Positions 13,064-22,783 of a DNA stretch of 64,000 nt are shown one piece after another. The position numbers were made by a program, and so were the translations under genes. Source of the DNA: Myxococcales bacterium (lineage in GTDB: Bacteria > Myxococcota_A > UBA9160 > SMWR01); contig JADFQO010000011.1 of assembly GCA_022561775.1 (NCBI GenBank), positions 1 through 64,000 on the forward strand, given 5' to 3'. A model generated the notes under the pieces. The model saw nothing but the letters and a program-made list of their open reading frames with translations. It was not told where the DNA came from and did no database searches. Within the stretch, counting starts at the first letter, position 1, and every line of letters begins with the position of its first letter.

Positions 13064-13076
13064 AGTGGCTAGTAAA

Positions 13077-14558
13077 ATGTTCTCGGGTCAAATCTCACGC
13101 ATCCATCGAGCTTGCCTCTTCCTTCTGACGCTGGTCTTCGCGCTGGGCGTAGCTGGCAGCGCCGAGGCGGCCAGGAGGAAGAAGAAGGACGACAAGGATG
13201 CGGGCAAGAGCTTCACCGTCAGCGAGCAGATGTACAAGAAGCTGACGAAAGTGCATGAGGCCCTGGAAGCCGACCAGTACCCAGAGGCTGCCGTGTTGCT
13301 CAAGGAACTCGAAAAGAGGGCGCAACGCCTGAATCCCTACGAGCGAGCGCTCGTCTATCAAATGCTCGGTCTATCGCAAGCGGGACAAGAACGATACGAG
13401 GCGGCTCTCGTCTACTTTGAAAAGTGTCTTGTCGACGATGCGCTACCGCACGGCGCGATCGTGAGTACCCGTTATACGATCGCTCAGCTCTACATGGCGA
13501 CCGATCAATTTGAAGAGGCGGTCGTCGCGTTGGAAAAGTGGTTGAAAGAAGTCGAGAAGCCCAACTCGAACGCCTATTATCTTCTCGCGGCTGCCTACTA
13601 CCAACTCGACCGGATCGATCAGGCGATCGGTCCCGCCGAAACCGCCATAAAGCTCGCAAAAAAGCCAAAGCCGCCGTGGCTGCAACTGCTGGTCGGTCTG
13701 TACTACGAGACCAAGCAGTACCCGAAGGCCGTCGGTCCTCTCGAAACGCTGATCATGATCGACCCCAAGAAGGCCTACTGGACGCAGCTCTCCTCGCTCT
13801 ACGCGCATCTGGAGCAGGAAGGCAAGTCGCTGGCGGTCATGCAGCTCGCCTACGCCCAGGATTACCTCACGAAGAACAACGATCTGCGCGCCCTCGCGCA
13901 GCTCTTTCTCTATCACTCCCTGCCGTATCGGGCGGGATTGGTGCTCGAGAAGGCCGGTAAAGACGAGCTCATCGACGAGGATGCCGCTTACTGGGAGATG
14001 CTCGCGAACAGCTGGCTGCTCGCTCGCGAGATGGATCGCGCGTTTGGGCCGCTGCAGACGGGAGCGAAGATTTCGGAAGAAGGCAATCTCTACGCGAGAT
14101 TGGGGCAGCTGTTTCTCGAGCGCGAGGAATGGGCGAAAGCCGCCGATGCGCTGAAAAGCGCGATCGAAAAAGGCGGTCTCAACGACGACGCCACCACGCA
14201 TCTGCTGCTGGCCATCTCGTTCTACCACCAGGAGCAATACCAGAATGCGATCAGGAATCTGAAGGTGGCGCGCTCGAGCGAATCAGAGCCGATCCGCAAG
14301 TCTGCAAACCAGTGGCTGGTGTTGGTCGACCGCGATGCCGAGGCCTTACGAGAAGCGCGGGCCGAGGAAGCATTGCGGGCCGAGGAAGCATTGCGAGCCG
14401 AGGAAGCATTGCGGGCCGAGGAAGCATTGCGGGCCGAAGAAGCATCGCAAACCGAGGAAGCGCCGCAGGCCGAGCAGGTGCTGCAACCGGAGCAGGTCGC
14501 CCAGCCCGAGGGAGCGCCGCAGGTCGAGCACGTCTCGCAAACAGCGCAAGCGCCGTAG
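13077..14558 (+). CDS. Secreted TPR-repeat protein of the TonB2 operon
   Basis: The protein has about 493 residues: a signal peptide (hydrophobic LFLLTLVFALGVAGSAEA, then a RRKKK cluster), multiple tetratricopeptide-like helical repeats through about residue 410, and a low-complexity tail built from ALRAEE hexads decaying into Glu/Gln/Ala/Pro-rich sequence. TPR proteins end TonB2-type operons in other bacteria and are thought to assist the TtpC-ExbB-ExbD-TonB complex in the periplasm. ATG 13077 is preferred because GAGTGG lies eight bases upstream. An in-frame GTG at 13065 is possible. Confidence 0.78.
   Translation: MFSGQISRIHRACLFLLTLVFALGVAGSAEAARRKKKDDKDAGKSFTVSEQMYKKLTKVHEALEADQYPEAAVLLKELEKRAQRLNPYERALVYQMLGLSQAGQERYEAALVYFEKCLVDDALPHGAIVSTRYTIAQLYMATDQFEEAVVALEKWLKEVEKPNSNAYYLLAAAYYQLDRIDQAIGPAETAIKLAKKPKPPWLQLLVGLYYETKQYPKAVGPLETLIMIDPKKAYWTQLSSLYAHLEQEGKSLAVMQLAYAQDYLTKNNDLRALAQLFLYHSLPYRAGLVLEKAGKDELIDEDAAYWEMLANSWLLAREMDRAFGPLQTGAKISEEGNLYARLGQLFLEREEWAKAADALKSAIEKGGLNDDATTHLLLAISFYHQEQYQNAIRNLKVARSSESEPIRKSANQWLVLVDRDAEALREARAEEALRAEEALRAEEALRAEEALRAEEASQTEEAPQAEQVLQPEQVAQPEGAPQVEHVSQTAQAP
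14349..14470 (+). repeat. 18-bp coding minisatellite (ALRAEE hexads)
   Basis: Consecutive 18-base units of the form GCATTGCGGGCCGAGGAA encode ALRAEE four times almost perfectly and then degenerate towards the 3' end of the TPR gene. Near-identity at the DNA level indicates slippage-type expansion. Copy number is likely to vary between strains. Confidence 0.8.
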
Positions 14559-14640: not shown

Positions 14641-15804
14641 CTAGCCGCCGAGCATGCGGTTCAGGTCGCGCTTCATTACTCCGTTGACGATGACGGCGCG
14701 CATGATCTCGGAAGTGCCCTCCCAGATGCGATCCACCCGCACGTCGCGGTACAAGCGCTCCGCCGCGTAGTCCGCGCAATAGCCGCGCCCTCCGAAGATC
14801 TGCACGACCCGGTCCGCGACCCGCCCCACCATCTCGGAGGCGTAGAGTTTGCACATCGACGTCTTGGTGTGCAGTTCTTTGGGATTGGCCCGGCCGGCAT
14901 CTTCTTCCCAGGACGTCGCGTAGACCATCAGGCGCGCCGCGTAGAGTTCCGTCGCAGAATCAGCGAGCATCCAACCGATACCCTGGTGTTCGTGGAGCTT
15001 GCTGCCGAATGATTCGCGCTCCGCACACCACACCTTGGCTTCTTCGAGCAACCGCTGTGCGGCGCCGAGGCAGCGGGCGGCGATGTGCAGGCGCTCCTCG
15101 CGGAACCAGGATTTGCTGATGTTGTTGGCCTCGCCGACGCCGCCGAGGATCTGCTCTTCTTCCACTTCGCAATCTTCGAACGCCATCTCGGGATGGCGAT
15201 CCTCTTGACGGTGCATGAAGCGTGGAGTGCGCACGATGCGCATACCCGGTGTTCCATGATCGACGAAGAAAAGCGTCTCTTCGCCAGGGCCCGTGACCGT
15301 GTGCACCAGGACCGCGAGCCCTTCGTGGCCACCGCTCACGAACCACTTCGTGCCGTTGATCACCCAGCGGTCGCCCTTCTTCACCGCAGTGGTCTGGAGA
15401 TTGGTGGTGTCGGAGCCGGCATCGGGTTCGGTCACCGCGTAGGCCACGGTAAACTCCCCGCGCATCGCGGGCTCCAAATACTTCTTTCGCTGCGCTTCGT
15501 TGCCACGCATCAGGGCGTTGTACGGGCCGCCCACGTGGGCCCAAAGACCGTTCGTCGCGCGGCCGGCCTGCTCCTGCACGATCGTCTGCTCGATCACCGA
15601 TGAGCCCAGCCCCCCCATCTTCTTGGGCACGTTCATCGGCCAGAGTCCGTGGTCGAGCGCCTTCTGCTGGATTCGGGCGCGGACCTCTTTGGGGAGTGCC
15701 TCCGTGGTGTCGACGGTCATCTCGTGGGGGATCAGCTCCTGCTCGACGAAATGGCGGGCTCGCTGCTGCAGTTCCACCAGCTCGGGGGTCAGTTCGAATT
15801 CCAA
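14641..15804 (-). CDS. Acyl-CoA dehydrogenase
   Basis: The 387-residue protein is a full-length acyl-CoA dehydrogenase: helical N-terminal domain, the FAD and substrate motif YAVTEPDAGSDTTNLQT, the middle beta domain, and the C-terminal QIFGGRGYCADYAAERLYR and WEGTSEIMR motifs, in which the glutamate region forms the acyl-CoA active site. It would catalyse alpha,beta-desaturation of an acyl-CoA with electrons passed to ETF. Start codon is TTG at 15804 with a strong AGGAGGAAGG upstream. It is divergent from the TetR-Rieske fusion and may share the AT-rich dyad at 15919-15954. Chain length or branch specificity cannot be read. Confidence 0.88.
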   Translation of the reverse strand: MEFELTPELVELQQRARHFVEQELIPHEMTVDTTEALPKEVRARIQQKALDHGLWPMNVPKKMGGLGSSVIEQTIVQEQAGRATNGLWAHVGGPYNALMRGNEAQRKKYLEPAMRGEFTVAYAVTEPDAGSDTTNLQTTAVKKGDRWVINGTKWFVSGGHEGLAVLVHTVTGPGEETLFFVDHGTPGMRIVRTPRFMHRQEDRHPEMAFEDCEVEEEQILGGVGEANNISKSWFREERLHIAARCLGAAQRLLEEAKVWCAERESFGSKLHEHQGIGWMLADSATELYAARLMVYATSWEEDAGRANPKELHTKTSMCKLYASEMVGRVADRVVQIFGGRGYCADYAAERLYRDVRVDRIWEGTSEIMRAVIVNGVMKRDLNRMLGG

Positions 15805-15918
15805 AGCCCTTCCTCCTGGGTGGCAGCAGCTGCGGGCATCCCGTTCGGGGAAAGCGCTCGTGGCCGGGACCGCTTCGGCAACCTCTTGATAAACACGGTG
15901 CGTCTTTGATTTCTCGAT

Positions 15919-15954
15919 ATTGAATGCTTCACTAATATTGGTGATCTATTCAAT
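15919..15954. promoter_or_regulatory. 36-bp AT-rich dyad, candidate operator of the BetI-Rieske protein
   Basis: The outer arms are ATTGAAT (15919-15925) and its exact reverse complement ATTCAAT (15948-15954). The inner arms are TCAC (15929-15932) and GTGA (15941-15944). AATATT lies at the centre (15934-15939). Fourteen of 18 positions are symmetric about 15936.5. It lies 48 bases before the TetR-Rieske start and about 115 bases before the divergent acyl-CoA dehydrogenase start. ATTGA/TCAAT half-sites recall the known BetI operator. No binding data exist. Confidence 0.6.
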
Positions 15955-16001
15955 CATCCACTACGATCCCGCCATCATACAGCTTTTTCGAGACGAGCAA
16001 G

Positions 16002-17867
16002 ATGGCTTCGGCGAATCATTACCCCAATTTCCACACTGAGCCCGATGCGCGCGAGCCGCGCGATGCCCGCCGCCGCCGAGAGTTGATCGAGGCCACCATC
16101 GAGTCGATCGCCCGAAACGGCCTATCCGGAACGACCATCGCAAAGGTCGCCGAGATCGCCAATCTCTCCGCGGGAATCGTCAGCTTCTATTTTCGAACCA
16201 AGGACGCGCTCCTTCTGGCGACTCTCGAGCACATCGATTCAGCATTCGAACGACGCCGTCTCGAAGTACTCGACCGCGCTGGGGACGATCCGGTGCGCCA
16301 ACTCGAGGCCATGATCGAGGTCTACTTCGACCCCGCCGTCTCCGATGCGGGCCGGGTCGCGGTCTGGGCAGCCTTCTGGGGCGAGGCCCGAGCCCGCGAG
16401 TCCTACCAACGCGTCTGCGGCGCCCGGCATGCCTGCGAGGAAGATCAACTGGTGGCTCTCTTCGAAGAGGTCGCCAACCAGGGTGGCTATGACCACATCG
16501 ACCCCAGCGCTCTCGGCAGCGCCTTCCACCACCTGCTGTCTTCCCTTCCGGAGGCCATGCTCGAAGACGGTCGTTGCTTCGATTACGAGAAAGCGAAGTC
16601 GACCTGCCGCAGTTTCCTTGCGAGCATTTTTCCCGCCGAGTTTTCACGCGCTGGCGTCGCGAAGAGCGGCACCGCGCGGGACCCCCGCCCGGCCGGGGCT
16701 TCGTCCGAGCTGCCGGCTGAAACCCTTCCTGCCTGGGTCTACCGAAATCCCGAGTTCTACGAACTCGAACGGGAGCAGATTTTCAAGCGCGGCTGGCTGA
16801 TGGTCGGCCACAAAAGCCAGGCGCCCAATCCCGGCGACTACATGACACTCGATGCAGTCGGTGAGCGAGCCGTCGTGATACGGGGCAAGGATGGCGTGCT
16901 GCGGGCGTTCCACAATGTTTGTAGGCATCGGGCGTCACGCGTCGTTCGAGACGAGACTGGCAACTGTCCGGGCGCCATCGTCTGCCCTTACCACGGTTGG
17001 AGCTATGGCTTCGATGGAAGGCTGCGCGGAGTTCCCGCGGAGGAGACCTTCGCGCGCCTCGACAAAGAGAAAATGGGCTTGATCGAACTCGAACTCGAGC
17101 AATGGATGGGTGTCGTATTCGTGCGCTTCGGGGGTGATGGCCCGAGCGTGGCTTCTGCGATGCAGGGTTTCGAAGAAGAGGCTCGCCTGTACCGGATCGA
17201 AGAGATGAAACCGTGGGGCAAGCCGATTTCCCTGATCGAGAATTTCAACTGGAAGTTCTTCGTCGAGAATGATTCGGAGGGCTACCACATCCCGAAGGGC
17301 CACCCCGGGCTAAGACGGCTTTTCGGTGCGACCTATGCGGACTCCGAACCGGGTTCGGCGGGCACTCGTTCCTGCGCGATGCTGCAGGAGCGAGAGTCCA
17401 CCCACTGGACCGAGCGCGCCTACCAGCGCCTTCTTCCCCAAGTTGCGCATCTCCCAGAGAGCCATCGACGCAGCTGGGTATACTACGGGCTGTTTCCCAG
17501 CGTCGCCTTTCAGGTGGCGCCCGATCGGGTGGATTGCTACCAGGTCCTGCCGTTGGGATCCGGCCAGTGCAGGATCCACGGTTTCGCCGTTGCTCTCGAA
17601 GATGATCGCCGGGAGATGCGCGCTGCGCGCTACCTCAATCAGCGTCTGACCCGTCAAATCTTCAAAGAGGATCTAGACTTCTGCTACTGGACGGACGCCG
17701 GGGTTCGTACCGATGGGTATCCAGGGGGCTTGCTGTCGGAACTGGAGTCCGGGGTGCGTAAATTCCAGGATCGCGTCCGCAAGCTGCTCCCCGTGGCCGG
17801 CTGCGCGGAAGCGCCGTCGAACGACCGGGTTGCCGCTGTGAACGACGAGATGAAAAGAGAGCATTGA
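16002..17867 (+). CDS. Fusion of a BetI-like TetR repressor and a Rieske oxygenase alpha subunit
   Basis: One uninterrupted 621-codon frame encodes two complete proteins. Residues about 20-215 are a TetR repressor closest to BetI: helix-turn-helix at 42-65 (TTIAKVAEIANLSAGIVSFYF), then a ligand-domain-like helical bundle. After a linker (216-237) with no in-frame ATG, GTG or TTG, residues 238-595 form a Rieske non-haem iron oxygenase. It has the [2Fe-2S] ligands C307, H309, C328 and H331, a bridging-type E426 three residues before the iron ligand H429, then H434 and a likely D557. A glutamate at the bridge position is a feature of quaternary-ammonium oxygenases such as carnitine monooxygenase. 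No ferredoxin or reductase partner is encoded nearby. Whether it regulates, oxidises, or does both is unknown. M20 hydrolase and aminotransferase genes follow on the same strand. Confidence 0.85.
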   Translation: MASANHYPNFHTEPDAREPRDARRRRELIEATIESIARNGLSGTTIAKVAEIANLSAGIVSFYFRTKDALLLATLEHIDSAFERRRLEVLDRAGDDPVRQLEAMIEVYFDPAVSDAGRVAVWAAFWGEARARESYQRVCGARHACEEDQLVALFEEVANQGGYDHIDPSALGSAFHHLLSSLPEAMLEDGRCFDYEKAKSTCRSFLASIFPAEFSRAGVAKSGTARDPRPAGASSELPAETLPAWVYRNPEFYELEREQIFKRGWLMVGHKSQAPNPGDYMTLDAVGERAVVIRGKDGVLRAFHNVCRHRASRVVRDETGNCPGAIVCPYHGWSYGFDGRLRGVPAEETFARLDKEKMGLIELELEQWMGVVFVRFGGDGPSVASAMQGFEEEARLYRIEEMKPWGKPISLIENFNWKFFVENDSEGYHIPKGHPGLRRLFGATYADSEPGSAGTRSCAMLQERESTHWTERAYQRLLPQVAHLPESHRRSWVYYGLFPSVAFQVAPDRVDCYQVLPLGSGQCRIHGFAVALEDDRREMRAARYLNQRLTRQIFKEDLDFCYWTDAGVRTDGYPGGLLSELESGVRKFQDRVRKLLPVAGCAEAPSNDRVAAVNDEMKREH

Positions 17868-17963
17868 ACGCGAAGCCGGCTGAAAAGAGGCCTCGTGTCC
17901 CGGTTGACCGGACCGACATCCGACGGCGATGAGCCTCGGGGCTTTCGATCGAGAGGATCGCAG

Positions 17964-19199
17964 ATGACCATCAAGATCAACCCCGCTCGGCTGTGGAACG
18001 ACATCATCGAGAGCGGGAAGATCGGGGCTACCGAAAAGGGTGGCTTATGCCGTCTCGCATTGAGTGAGGAGGATCGCCGTGTCCGCGAGTGGTTCGTCGA
18101 AGCGTGCCGCGCCGAGGGATGTGAAGTTCGCTTCGACGAATTGGGAAACCTATTTGCCCGACGGGCGGGTCACCGTACCGATCTACACCCGATCGCGATC
18201 GGAAGCCATCTGGACTCGCAACCAACCGGGGGTAAGTTCGACGGCATCCTGGGAGTCCTTGCTGGGCTCGAAGTGGTTCGCACATTCAACGAGCACGGAA
18301 TCAAGACCGAGCACCCCATCGAAATCATCGATTGGACGAACGAAGAGGGAGCGCGCTTCGCGCCAGCCATGCAAGGCTCGGGAGTCTTTGCGGGCGTACT
18401 CGACAAGGAGACGATTCTCTCCTGTCAGGATCGAGAGGGCCGGGTATTTGGCGAGGAACTCGAGAGGATCGGATTCCGAGGTGATGACGCCTGTGGCGAC
18501 CATCCACTCGACTCGTACTTCGAGCTTCACATTGAGCAGGGCCCCATTCTCGAGGCCGAGGAGAAAGTGATCGGAGTCGTCGGGGGTGTGCAGGGAATGC
18601 GGTGGTACGACATCACGCTGAAAGGTCGCGCGAGTCACGCGGGCACGACACCGATGAAGATGCGCCGCGACGCGTCTGTGGCGGCCGCCGAAATCATCGT
18701 CGCCGTGAATCGTCTCGCTCAAGAGATCGGCGAGGGTGCTCTGACCACGACGGGCGTGATCGAAGCGTATCCAAACTCGCGCAACGTCGTGCCGAGCCGA
18801 GTGTTCATGACCGCCGATCTACGGCACACCAGAGTCGATGCGCTTGATCGGATGGAAGAGAGACTGAAGGAAGTCGTCGCCGCAATCTGTTTGCAGCACC
18901 AGGTTTCCGAAACGCTCGATCGCCTCTGGGATTCGCCACCCGTCCAATTCGACGTCGAATGCGTCGATGCGGTCCGAGAGGCTGCGAAAAGAGGCCACCA
19001 TCCACTGCGAGAAATTACGTCCGGCGCGGGACACGATGCCGTCCATGTTTCGCGGGTCGCTCCAACGGCGATGATCTTCATCCCCTGCAAGGACGGGATC
19101 AGCCATAATGAAATCGAAAGTGCGACGCCCGAACACGTGGGTGCCGGCGCTTCCGTTTTGTTGGAAGCGGTTCTCGAACGCGACCACCATGGGAGCTGA
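17964..19199 (+). CDS. M20-family Zn hydrolase (N-carbamoyl-amino-acid / ureidopropionase type)
   Basis: The 411-residue protein belongs to the HyuC/AllC/beta-ureidopropionase branch of peptidase family M20. Metal and catalytic residues are visible: GSHLDSQPTGGKFDG (H82, D93), WTNEEGARF (E127/E128), HIEQGP, GAGHDA and GISHNE. These enzymes hydrolyse the C-N bond of ureido acids or allantoate, or sometimes amides, in the cytoplasm. ATG 17964 has GAGAGGATC just upstream. The 96-base gap after the TetR-Rieske gene and common direction suggest one operon. Substrate is uncertain within the family. Confidence 0.85.
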   Translation: MTIKINPARLWNDIIESGKIGATEKGGLCRLALSEEDRRVREWFVEACRAEGCEVRFDELGNLFARRAGHRTDLHPIAIGSHLDSQPTGGKFDGILGVLAGLEVVRTFNEHGIKTEHPIEIIDWTNEEGARFAPAMQGSGVFAGVLDKETILSCQDREGRVFGEELERIGFRGDDACGDHPLDSYFELHIEQGPILEAEEKVIGVVGGVQGMRWYDITLKGRASHAGTTPMKMRRDASVAAAEIIVAVNRLAQEIGEGALTTTGVIEAYPNSRNVVPSRVFMTADLRHTRVDALDRMEERLKEVVAAICLQHQVSETLDRLWDSPPVQFDVECVDAVREAAKRGHHPLREITSGAGHDAVHVSRVAPTAMIFIPCKDGISHNEIESATPEHVGAGASVLLEAVLERDHHGS

Positions 19200-19310: not shown

Positions 19311-20630
19311 ATGTCCCACCGATCGCTGAAAAAATCCAATGAATATTTCAAGCGCGCCCTGAAGAGCATGCCACTGGGTGTTTCCTCCAACTTCCGCTAC
19401 TGGGGAGAAGAAAGGACGCTCTACATCAAGAGGGCCAAGGGGCCGCGAATCTGGGATATCGATGACAATGAGTACATCGACTATCGGTTGGGTTATGGGC
19501 CGGCCATCCTCGGCTATGCGGACGACCGCGTCGATGCTGCTGCCCGCGAGGGAATGGAAGTAGGTGGCGTATTTGCGCTGGCGACTGAACTCGAGGCTGT
19601 CGTTGCGGAGCGCATCCAGAAGATGGTGCCCTCGGCGGAACTCGTTCGCTATTCGAACTCGGGTACAGAGGCGGTCATGGCCGCACTGCGGTTGGCGCGC
19701 GGTTATACGGGCAAAGACTCCTACATCCTGGTCGAAGGGGGCTATCACGGCCTACACGATGCGACGCTCTGGCAGGCCGCAGTCGACAAGATGCGTCCGG
19801 GCGACACGGTCCCCCCCCTTGAGCCGTACGGCGAGGGCGTCCCGAAGATCGTCAAGCAACTCATCCACTGCGTTCCGTTGAACGACGCCAATTTTCTGGA
19901 AGATGTACTCAGGAAGAATGCCGATCAGATCGGCGCGTTTCTGATCGAGCCGATCATGGGCAACTGCTGTGGAATTCCCGCCCAGGCCGACTACGTCAAG
20001 GCGGCTCGGGAACTCTGCGATCGCCACGGTGTCATGATGATCATCGACGAGGTCAAGACGGGCTTCCGGGTCGCTCGCGGTGGTGTCCAGGAGCTGATGG
20101 ACGTGAAGGCGGATCTGTGCACGTTCGCGAAGGCGCTCGCCAATGGTTATCCGATCTCGGTCGTTGCGGGCCGAGAGGAAATCATGCGCAAGATCGGCAA
20201 CGGTGTCGTGCACGGCGGAACCTACACCGCTCACTCGGTTTCGATTGCGGCCGCGAACAAGACGCTGGAGATCCTCGACGAGACAGACGCACTCGAGACG
20301 ATCGAGACCTACGGGAAGAATCTGCAGGCGGGATTTGCGAAGATCCTCGACGCGCGCGGCATCGCGCACAACTTCGTCGGACATGCGTCGATGGGTGGCC
20401 TGTTTTTCGCCGAGAACGCACCGACGAACTACCGAGACTGGGTAAAGCACGACAGCACGCTCTACGAGGCGCTGGCGCTGCATCTGCACGATCTGGGTAT
20501 TCTCTGCGAGCAGGACTGCCGCGAACCCTGGTTCATCGCGGAATCCCACGACGATGCGTGTCTGAAGGAGACGATCGAAAAATTCGAGATCGCACTCGAT
20601 GCCACGCTGAAGCAACTCGGCCGGAGCTAG
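19311..20630 (+). CDS. Class III PLP aminotransferase, glutamate-1-semialdehyde aminomutase-like
   Basis: The 439-residue protein is a fold-type I class III aminotransferase close to the GSAM subgroup: SNSGTEAVMAALRLAR binds the cofactor phosphate, DEVKTGFR (D246) contacts the pyridine nitrogen, and K274 in TFAKALANGYP is the Schiff-base lysine. Such homologues outside haem clusters often transaminate omega-amino or beta-amino acids. AAGGAG lies six bases before the ATG. It is the third plus-strand gene after the TetR-Rieske fusion (111-base gap after the M20 gene), and no haem genes are nearby, so a catabolic role is more likely than haem synthesis. Confidence 0.82.
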   Translation: MSHRSLKKSNEYFKRALKSMPLGVSSNFRYWGEERTLYIKRAKGPRIWDIDDNEYIDYRLGYGPAILGYADDRVDAAAREGMEVGGVFALATELEAVVAERIQKMVPSAELVRYSNSGTEAVMAALRLARGYTGKDSYILVEGGYHGLHDATLWQAAVDKMRPGDTVPPLEPYGEGVPKIVKQLIHCVPLNDANFLEDVLRKNADQIGAFLIEPIMGNCCGIPAQADYVKAARELCDRHGVMMIIDEVKTGFRVARGGVQELMDVKADLCTFAKALANGYPISVVAGREEIMRKIGNGVVHGGTYTAHSVSIAAANKTLEILDETDALETIETYGKNLQAGFAKILDARGIAHNFVGHASMGGLFFAENAPTNYRDWVKHDSTLYEALALHLHDLGILCEQDCREPWFIAESHDDACLKETIEKFEIALDATLKQLGRS

Positions 20631-20665: not shown

Positions 20666-22783
20666 TTAGTTCGTTTCTTTGGGGATGATCAGCGCGTCTA
20701 CTACGACGGCTTGATCGGGTAGGGCGACCAGCGGGTTGACGTCGATCTCGGAGATCGACTCGCCGAGGTCCTCGGCGAGTGCCGAGAGGCCCATTACGGC
20801 GTCGACGATCGCCTCGATGTCGGCGGGCGGCCTGCCGCGTGCGCCCTTCAGCAGTGCGGCTCCACGCAGACGCATCAGGATCTTGCGAACGGCGCCTGGC
20901 GTGGTCGGGACCGTCAGCATCGAGACATCGGCGAGCACCTCGACGAAGATTCCGCCTGTTCCGAGGGTGAGCATCGGGCCGAACTGGGGATCGTTGACGA
21001 CACCGAGGATCAACTCGGTTCCCTGCGGGACCATCTGCTGGACGAGCACCTCCGCGCCCAGTCGCTTCTCGAAGTCCGTGTAGGCTTCGGAGAGTTCTTC
21101 GCGGCTGGCGAGCCCGAGGCGGACGCCACCGCGCTCGGTCTTGTGCAGGTCCTCGCAGGTCTTGAGCGCGACGGGGTAACCGATCTCGTCTGCCGCATCC
21201 AAGGCGCCCGCGAGCGTTTCGGTGCGGATTTCGCGCGTCGTGGTGAGCCCGTAGGCGGCGAGGAACTGCTTGCTCTCGTGTTCGCCGAGCGCACCCGAAG
21301 CGCTGCGAAGGCGGTCGCGCAGCTCCTGAACATCAGCCGGGCGCGGGACTTTGCAGGGCTTTTCACTTGCGCGGGCGGTGCGGTCGCGCTGGTAGGCGCT
21401 GTACTCGACGACGTGGCGCGCAGCGCGCAATCCCGTTTCGGTGCCCATCAAGACCGGAATGCCCAGCGCTCTCAATTCGCCGGCCTGTTTGGCGCTCGTC
21501 GAGGCACTCAGATGGACGAGAACGGCGAGTGGATTGCGCAGCTCGCTCAACATTGGGCCGACGATGTTCGCGTACCAGGAGTGGTCGTCATCCATCGGAA
21601 CCAGGTCGACCGCCAGCAAGGTGATTCCGGTCGAGGGATCGGCGTCGAGCGCGTGGATGCCCTTCGCGTAGATGTCTTCCGCGCCGTGTCCCGTTCCCCA
21701 CGCATCGAGGGGGTTGACCGGATCGAGTCCCGGCTCGAGGATTTCGCTGAGCTTCTTCTGGGTTTCTTCGGCAATCGGAGTGAAGTCGATGCCCTCGGCT
21801 TCGCCCAGGTCGACCAACAACGCGCGCTCCCCACCCGAGTCGAGTATGGCCGACACGAAGCGAGTCTTCGCTCGCATTCCCGTGGCGAAGAGTTCGAGCG
21901 CATCCAACATCTCGTCGATCGATCGTGCGCGACGTACCCCATAATGCTCGAAGAGCGCATCGTAGGCGCCGTCTTCGCCAGCGAGCGCACCGCTGTGCGC
22001 CCGGGCGAGCTGTGCGCCGCGCTCGCTTCGACCGGTCTTCAAGGCGACGATCGGGATATCTCGTTCCGCTGCTTCTACGAGCGCGGCCCTGAAAGTCTCC
22101 GGGTCGCGAACGGTTTCGAGAAAGAGGCCGATCACTCGCGTCGATTCATCCTCGAGCACAAACTGCATGTAGTCCGACATCGTCGTTGCGGCTTCGCTGC
22201 CGGTCGAGATGATGTAGTTGAAATTCACGCCGCGTTGATTCTGGAGAAAAGCCTCCCAGACGGAGCCGCTGTGGCAGATCATCGCGGTATTACCCTTTGG
22301 TGTTTTCGGGTTCACCCGATAACCCGATACCGCGAGCCGATGGCACGGCGCAACGAACCCCATGCCGTTCGGGCCGCAAAGGACGATGTTGTTCTCCTCC
22401 GCGATCTTTCCGAGTTGATCCTTCAGCGAGAGCTCGCCTTCGACGGGCTCCGAGTAGGCGCTCGCGAAGATGACTGCGGCGGGAATCCCGCACTCCGCGG
22501 CTTCCTCGAGCGAAGCGACCAGCCCGCCATTGGGCACCGCGAGGATGGCGAGGTCTGGCCGCTGAGGTAGATCGCGCAGCGACGCATAACAGGGGCGATC
22601 GTAGAGCGAGTCGTAGCGCGGATTGACGCCGTAGATCGTACCCTCGTATCCGAACTGGCTGATGTTCTGCGCGAGTATTCCACCGAAACGGCCCGGCTGG
22701 CTGATCCCGACGATCGCGACGGACTCCGGATGAAGGAGAGGCGTAAGGTTCTGACGGTGACTCGCCTGTGTGGTGGTGCTCAT
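20666..22783 (-). CDS. ADP-forming acyl-CoA synthetase (fused alpha-beta subunits)
   Basis: The 705-residue protein has the acetyl/acyl-CoA synthetase (NDP-forming) layout. An N-terminal CoA-binding Rossmann domain opens with SVAIVGISQPGRFGG. A succinyl-CoA-synthetase-like flavodoxin region carries the AHSGALAGEDGAY motif, whose histidine is the phosphorylated residue in this family. A C-terminal ATP-grasp domain starts about residue 490. It interconverts acyl-CoA plus ADP and Pi with acid plus ATP. It converges with the aminotransferase gene and is divergent from the TPR lipoprotein. Acyl specificity is not determinable. Confidence 0.85.
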   Translation of the reverse strand: MSTTTQASHRQNLTPLLHPESVAIVGISQPGRFGGILAQNISQFGYEGTIYGVNPRYDSLYDRPCYASLRDLPQRPDLAILAVPNGGLVASLEEAAECGIPAAVIFASAYSEPVEGELSLKDQLGKIAEENNIVLCGPNGMGFVAPCHRLAVSGYRVNPKTPKGNTAMICHSGSVWEAFLQNQRGVNFNYIISTGSEAATTMSDYMQFVLEDESTRVIGLFLETVRDPETFRAALVEAAERDIPIVALKTGRSERGAQLARAHSGALAGEDGAYDALFEHYGVRRARSIDEMLDALELFATGMRAKTRFVSAILDSGGERALLVDLGEAEGIDFTPIAEETQKKLSEILEPGLDPVNPLDAWGTGHGAEDIYAKGIHALDADPSTGITLLAVDLVPMDDDHSWYANIVGPMLSELRNPLAVLVHLSASTSAKQAGELRALGIPVLMGTETGLRAARHVVEYSAYQRDRTARASEKPCKVPRPADVQELRDRLRSASGALGEHESKQFLAAYGLTTTREIRTETLAGALDAADEIGYPVALKTCEDLHKTERGGVRLGLASREELSEAYTDFEKRLGAEVLVQQMVPQGTELILGVVNDPQFGPMLTLGTGGIFVEVLADVSMLTVPTTPGAVRKILMRLRGAALLKGARGRPPADIEAIVDAVMGLSALAEDLGESISEIDVNPLVALPDQAVVVDALIIPKETN

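Follow-up and report, generated by a model that had tools for sequence, protein, structure and literature searches.

The window considered here, a stretch of 64,000 nucleotides from a Myxococcales bacterium, contains a single reading frame in which a TetR-type repressor is followed by a Rieske oxygenase, which raises the question of whether such a protein is genuine and, if so, what an oxygenase does in the chain of a DNA-binding regulator. The frame starts with ATG, extends from 16002 to 17867 on the forward strand and comprises 621 codons plus stop (Table 1). As the earlier note had stated, both halves are full length: the four Pfam domains TetR_N, TetR_C_6, Rieske and Ring_hydroxyl_A all score above their gathering cut-offs. 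An AlphaFold2 model of the protein (27-sequence alignment) had a mean pLDDT of 87.3 with both halves folded, and the only segments with a pLDDT below 50 were residues 1-16 and residues 217-235, the latter being the linker. Between residues 200 and 275 the sole in-frame ATG, GTG or TTG is ATG267, which lies inside the Rieske domain; the codon scan thus agrees with the linker free of start codons described beforehand, and a hidden separate oxygenase start in the linker is ruled out for the window copy. (Some relatives have scattered start-like codons in the linker, none of them conserved.) The best Foldseek matches of the model were the carnitine monooxygenase CntA and the stachydrine demethylase Stc2 (PDB 6y8j, 6zgp, 4qur and others). 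Regarding equivalog profiles, the protein reached 95.6 bits with TIGR03384 (BetI), under the cut-off of 201.3, and 142.2 bits with NF058607 (GbcA), under the cut-off of 670; BetI is the nearest TetR profile, and the term 'BetI-like' used in the earlier note holds in this sense only. By the features tested, the window protein is classed as a TetR protein joined to a Rieske oxygenase and, by score, as neither BetI nor GbcA.

Table 1. Positions of the fusion gene, its domains, the candidate control elements and the adjoining genes in the window
Feature	Position	Strand	Basis or remark
TetR-Rieske oxygenase fusion gene	16002..17867	+	ORF and Pfam; one of 14 full-length members in the order
TetR_N helix-turn-helix DNA-binding domain, residues 28-73	16083..16220	+	PF00440, 37.3 bits (cut-off 24)
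BetI-type TetR C-terminal domain TetR_C_6, residues 98-210	16293..16631	+	PF13977, 37.9 bits (cut-off 27)
Flexible linker, residues 217-235, without in-frame start codon	16650..16706	+	pLDDT <50, codon scan
Rieske [2Fe-2S] domain, residues 265-349, ligands C307, H309, C328, H331	16794..17048	+	PF00355
Oxygenase catalytic domain Ring_hydroxyl_A, residues 412-596, E426 (bridge), H429, H434, D557	17235..17789	+	PF00848
Putative operator, 36-bp double dyad WTTGRAY-N7-YAATAYTR-N7-RTTCAAW	15919..15954	.	Conserved upstream of fusions
Promoter-like elements TTGGTG (15938-15943, inside the operator) and TACGAT (15962-15967)	15938..15967	+	By eye, weak
Acyl-CoA dehydrogenase-type gene, divergent, possible second operator target	14641..15804	-	Same sequence cluster adjoins the fusion in L036, L038 and L040
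M20 hydantoinase/carbamoylase-type amidohydrolase, start 17895 or 17967	17895..19199	+	NF006769, 605 bits (cut-off 452)
Class III (GSA/GntE-like) aminotransferase	19311..20630	+	GntE, 462.9 bits (below cut-off 525)
ADP-forming acyl-CoA ligase-like gene, convergent with the aminotransferase	20666..22783	-	Profile search

Full-length fusions, 14 in total, were found in 11 of the 79 genomes of the order (the best 16 or fewer candidates scored per genome), and each of the other three genomes in the genus of the window has two fusion paralogues. In a draw from the phylum, 12 of 377 genomes matched at E 1e-100 (best three candidates per genome), namely the same 11 and one with an unfused relative. 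Named genomes were scanned with an alignment query (a single-protein query matched none), and the best 80 of 305 relatives were taken as loci; fused frames among these best 80 came from Myxococcota and 'Deltaproteobacteria' MAGs, Gammaproteobacteria MAGs, Rhodospirillaceae, Hyphomicrobiales, Kiloniellaceae and Inquilinus limosus, and loci in which TetR and oxygenase are separate genes (classified by script) also occur beside the fused ones. After removal of copies of genomes already included (L074-L081 and L083-L087), the full set, with the frames from the best 80 of 305 relatives, comprises 50 fused frames; L097, which is cut at the contig start, was counted and was excluded from the trees. 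The 14 fusions in the order and those in other public assemblies rule out an assembly join or an in-frame error at the linker, and the 50 frames rule out that the window copy is unique. The joint TetR_N and Rieske architecture, for which a search of related genomes had been proposed, therefore recurs, and homologues are not always split, though split neighbours exist. On the TetR and Rieske trees (quick trees with long branches flagged, the Rieske tree excluding group C as defined below) the fused or split state needs five and four changes, respectively. Regarding spread by plasmids, none of the 974 matching PLSDB records had one place covering at least 80% of the query. A more distant two-gene arrangement occurs at L049:2263-4215 and L050:9370-11328 (genomes G076 and G077), where a TetR gene, one stop codon and a Rieske oxygenase gene follow each other in the same frame. 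On a Shinella zoogloeoides plasmid (L165) an unfused oxygenase (42% identity) has an aminotransferase, a separate TetR gene and an ABC transporter in its vicinity. (Note that the record of L100 is named Mycobacterium sp. KBS0706; its fusion is very close to the Inquilinus limosus one, and the record is probably misnamed.)

The oxygenase half of the window copy keeps every metal ligand named in the earlier note (C307, H309, C328, H331, H429, H434 and D557, all present in the alignment), together with a Glu at the bridging position as in quaternary-ammonium oxygenases. This residue, E426, aligns with the bridging Glu that is numbered E205 in a report on CntA (PMC7948474), and its place three residues before the first catalytic His is a group V hallmark. 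In that report, Y203 of CntA (group Va) is the residue that holds the quaternary ammonium group by a cation-pi interaction. The corresponding window residue is Asp424, the aromatic cation-pi residue being absent, and the Cys206/Cys209 pair of CntA is replaced by Gly427/Ile430. By fold and bridge, the window oxygenase is thus assigned to the quaternary-amine kind; because of these replacements its substrate need not be choline-like, and the class of its ligand is uncertain owing to Asp424. The earlier proposal that choline might be the ligand shared by sensor and enzyme finds no support here: Asp takes the place of the tyrosine, and the neighbouring genes do not point to choline either. The window assembly (77% complete) has a single PF00848 match, the fusion, and encodes a GbcB/PaaE-like reductase, scoring below both cut-offs, on contig C28. 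Given an intact active site and a search of the assembly that yielded no second oxygenase catalytic domain, the window copy probably turns its substrate over too.

The putative operator lies between the divergent acyl-CoA dehydrogenase gene and the fusion, ends 47 bp before the start codon of the latter, and is a 36-bp double dyad common to fusion upstream regions that otherwise differ. In the 2.7-Mb window assembly (G000) the double dyad had one match at up to three mismatches, the control pattern none; a further 10 sites, all of them upstream of group A or B fusions (see below), were found in seven of the other 10 genomes with fusions, again with none for the control. All 11 sites in the eight genomes are located 41-100 bp before a fusion start (starts assigned in the analysis), and none was found elsewhere in these genomes. 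A matrix scan of 1.6 Mb of locus sequence likewise yielded sites only upstream of fusions (none in one mononucleotide shuffle), including the site of the L082 fusion, a locus that had no part in building the matrix. The 36-bp pattern had no match in three of the 10 other fusion genomes: the upstream region of G006 has a different dyad (by eye), the contig of G011 begins about 70 bp before the fusion gene, and in G068 one half of the dyad is followed by N (by eye). No common site was seen, by eye, upstream of group C fusions. The binding region 15900-15960 guessed in the earlier note was well placed, as the sole conserved double dyad of the genome, a candidate site, falls within it. A TAnnnT box just after the double dyad is invariant in 12 aligned upstream regions, and a sigma-70 consensus scan found no promoter. 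Because the invariant box follows the site directly, an overlap of operator and promoter is suggested; because the sites lie 41-100 bp before fusions and the site is present in single copy in the assembly, autoregulation of the fusion via the putative operator is likely. Conservation along the protein is highest in the helix-turn-helix region (mean identity 0.97 over residues 22-73 in the four group A copies of the genus), and the DNA-binding half is very probably functional.

Three states of the oxygenase half were distinguished among the 50 fusions. Group A, defined as the fusions with all metal ligands intact, comprises 25 fusions including the window copy. In group B (five fusions) the Rieske ligands, E426 and D557 are kept in 5/5, H434 in 2/5 and H429 in 0/5. 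In group C (20 fusions) C307 and C328 are kept in 20/20, H331 in 18/20 and H309 in 5/20, and of the catalytic ligands H429 is kept in 1/20, H434 in 0/20 and D557 in 6/20; some of these absences are gaps, as L130, L150 and L153 reach the locus end and L148 stops early. In a model of one group C protein (L141, pLDDT 75.8) the match to stachydrine demethylase persists (E 6e-17). A His at column 312, three residues past the canonical H309, was observed in all 20 members of group C (L117-L153), in 9/25 of group A and in 2/51 of the unfused rows; a shifted Cys2His2 metal site in group C is possible. Regarding the unfused relatives, 50 of 51 keep all ligands, and the frame of the exception (L140) is broken before D557. 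(The 51 rows come from loci found via TetR patterns, with a cut at 90 bits; a piece in L103, of 113 bits and cut by the locus end, was dropped, and no unfused oxygenase at 40-90 bits was found in these loci except the second piece of the L140 gene.) Degenerate catalytic sites therefore occur in 25 of 50 fusions versus none of the 50 unfused relatives with complete frames, counts which ignore kinship. For the group B state the trees force at least two (TetR) or at least three (Rieske) changes. A separate oxygenase of the same clade is present in the locus of 14 of the 20 group C fusions versus none of the 30 group A and B fusions (250-bit cut; Fisher 4e-8, which ignores kinship; the L103 piece might pass this cut if whole and would affect the 0/30 count). 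Among these 14 oxygenases, 13 have all ligands and one (L140) has the broken frame; 13 are convergent, tail to tail, with the fusion, and only that of L130 is divergent. Two TetR genes nested in group C, L131:9215-9796 and L133:2869-3450, have frames that end at about 250 codons and seem to have lost the oxygenase half.

The simplest account of groups A, B and C would be that an enzyme came to serve its own regulator as the sensor. The fusion is, with somewhat better than even confidence, an enzyme-derived one-component regulator that works like PutA, active in the window copy and a sensor only in the degenerate relatives; the window copy is probably both autorepressor and oxygenase. When substrate is absent, TetR dimers on the operator would block the promoter of the fusion and perhaps that of the divergent acyl-CoA dehydrogenase gene. 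Binding of an amine-like substrate (methylated or quaternary) by the oxygenase half, or a change in the redox state of its [2Fe-2S] cluster, would be passed on to the TetR half, upon which the DNA would be released. The window copy would convert the substrate with a shared reductase, for which the GbcB/PaaE-like protein of contig C28 is a candidate, and thereby reset the switch. Group B relatives, with the catalytic His lost and the cluster ligands kept, would be sensors only, as would group C relatives, with the catalytic site lost, the Rieske site altered and, mostly, a separate same-clade oxygenase in the locus. Of the three functions guessed in the earlier note, the self-consuming sensor-enzyme and the iron-sulfur input to DNA binding are favoured by the degenerate relatives, and a merely promoter-tethered enzyme is possible; taken as a whole, that interpretation is partly supported.

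No path of coupling between the halves is visible, the linker being disordered in the model and poorly conserved (mean identity 0.18 over residues 215-239 among 10 group A copies). A disordered and variable linker is also compatible with two independent modules that are merely produced together, the TetR half sensing a ligand of its own in its own C-terminal domain and an ordinary oxygenase being loosely tethered to it with no signal in between. The TetR half does possess such a domain, the same clade also includes loci split into two genes, and pure tethering is possible for group A. Co-production would, however, leave unexplained that loss of the catalytic site was seen in fused copies only, and the TetR half, the cluster ligands of group B and the fold of the one group C model persist despite this loss; as an account of the family it is considered unlikely, though credible.

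Regarding the genes around the fusions, at least one amine-type cluster is present in 46 of 50 loci (A 23/25, B 5/5, C 18/20; raw, uncontrolled counts, with neighbour names that rest on one representative per sequence cluster and many loci that are short). Parts of PotABCD-like ABC transporters lie beside 28/50 fusions (A 10/25, B 0/5, C 18/20), class III aminotransferases near 9/25, 1/5 and 13/20, GcvT-like proteins near 7/25, 1/5 and 9/20, and FAD oxidase-like proteins near 7/25, 1/5 and 10/20 fusions of groups A, B and C, respectively. An MttB-like methyltransferase was found near 9/50 fusions (A 5/25, B 4/5, C 0/20), accompanied by a corrinoid protein, DUF1638 and RACo. In the other three genomes of the genus the group B fusion is flanked by the MttB-like gene on one side and the corrinoid protein on the other. 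In several group C loci (L117, L119, L121, L129, L134 and others) the fusion stands head to head with two PotABCD-like permease genes and not with the oxygenase. The window itself also contains an 18-bp tandem repeat (14357-14461, 5.8 copies) that codes for the AEEALR-type tail of the protein at 13065-14558, and a 198-bp tandem repeat (1-621, 3.1 copies).

The MttB-like neighbours bear on a second alternative, in which the [2Fe-2S] cluster would be the main sensor of redox state or oxygen, catalysis would be secondary or absent, and the switch would serve the choice between O2-dependent and corrinoid-dependent demethylation. Such a switch would fit the retention of the cluster ligands in all five group B fusions despite the loss of the catalytic His, the presence of an MttB-like gene in four and of a corrinoid protein in three of their five loci, and the conservation of C307, the column-312 His and C328 throughout group C. 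On the other hand, the canonical His309 is kept in just 5/20 of group C, no member of the MttB cluster was found in the window locus, and the cluster itself is a prediction from its ligands; a switch of this kind is judged improbable.

Selection was estimated with omega (NG86). In group A omega was 0.06-0.20 in both halves for six pairs (dS reaching 1.8, with saturation in a seventh), and both halves are, by these estimates, under purifying selection. The one pair of group B gave 0.10-0.28, and in four pairs of group C omega was 0.03-0.13 for the TetR half versus 0.10-0.59 for the oxygenase-like half. Over 66 pairs from 12 of the 14 group C loci with a separate oxygenase, the TetR halves share a mean identity of 0.69, the oxygenase-like halves of the fusions 0.35 and the separate oxygenases 0.64. 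Between the fusion genes of L036 and L038, synonymous divergence climbs along the gene (0.32, 0.70 and 1.56), as if parts had recombined. Because the oxygenase-like half of group C evolves fast and two TetR genes nested in that group have no detected oxygenase half, it may be decaying rather than sensing. The general claim that the fused oxygenase half no longer matters and the TetR half alone does is very improbable, as the rapid evolution of this half in group C and the TetR-only genes of L131 and L133, which would agree with it, stand against a window copy that keeps all ligands and the low omega of both halves of group A where dS is usable.

The proposed enzyme-derived regulator is of interest since the path from enzyme to regulator is generally reconstructed from its end points. 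In the present case split loci, intact fusions, fusions without catalytic iron ligands and fusions in which the Rieske site is altered too coexist in one family, and each state has a recognisable context, so that the order of the evolutionary steps is directly testable. If the cluster gates DNA binding, the fusion would be an iron-sulfur transcription factor of Rieske type and would tie amine catabolism and redox together in one molecule; literature searches of titles and the starts of abstracts found no precedent for such a factor. A still bolder proposal is a transcription factor family with a Rieske-type (Cys2His2) [2Fe-2S] sensory cofactor, in which one chain would sense redox state as well as a methylated-amine substrate and in which repeated loss of the catalytic iron would have produced a dedicated sensor that helps to choose between O2-dependent and corrinoid-dependent demethylation; taken as a whole this is tentative and rather doubtful. 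No description of the TetR-Rieske oxygenase architecture was found in literature searches that covered titles and the starts of abstracts and, thinly, subscription journals.

Regarding known systems, PutA (proline utilisation A) is a trigger enzyme in which a ribbon-helix-helix domain is joined to proline-oxidising enzymes. The window protein has this trigger-enzyme architecture, with regulator and enzyme domains in one chain, and resembles PutA in combining a DNA-binding repressor domain with a catabolic redox enzyme for the operon controlled, whereas its parts are a TetR domain and a Rieske non-haem iron oxygenase. BetI is the TetR-family choline repressor; its profile is the nearest one and the C-terminal domain is of BetI type, but the window protein falls far below the BetI cut-off and is fused to an oxygenase. 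With CntA and Stc2 it shares the fold, the Rieske ligands, the 2-His-1-carboxylate site and the bridging Glu, whereas these enzymes are without a DNA-binding domain and Y203, Cys206 and Cys209 of CntA correspond to D424, G427 and I430. BzdR, according to its description (PMC3602430), consists of a DNA-binding domain, a linker and a shikimate-kinase-like effector domain that descends from an enzyme and has lost catalysis. The likeness to BzdR lies in a DNA-binding domain linked to an enzyme-descended effector domain and in the loss of catalysis as a regulator arose; the difference lies in the kind of effector and in the occurrence here of intact and degenerate catalytic sites within one family, in which metal cofactors are expected. 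By analogy, the TetR-Rieske fusion is thus best regarded as working like PutA and BzdR and as belonging to neither.
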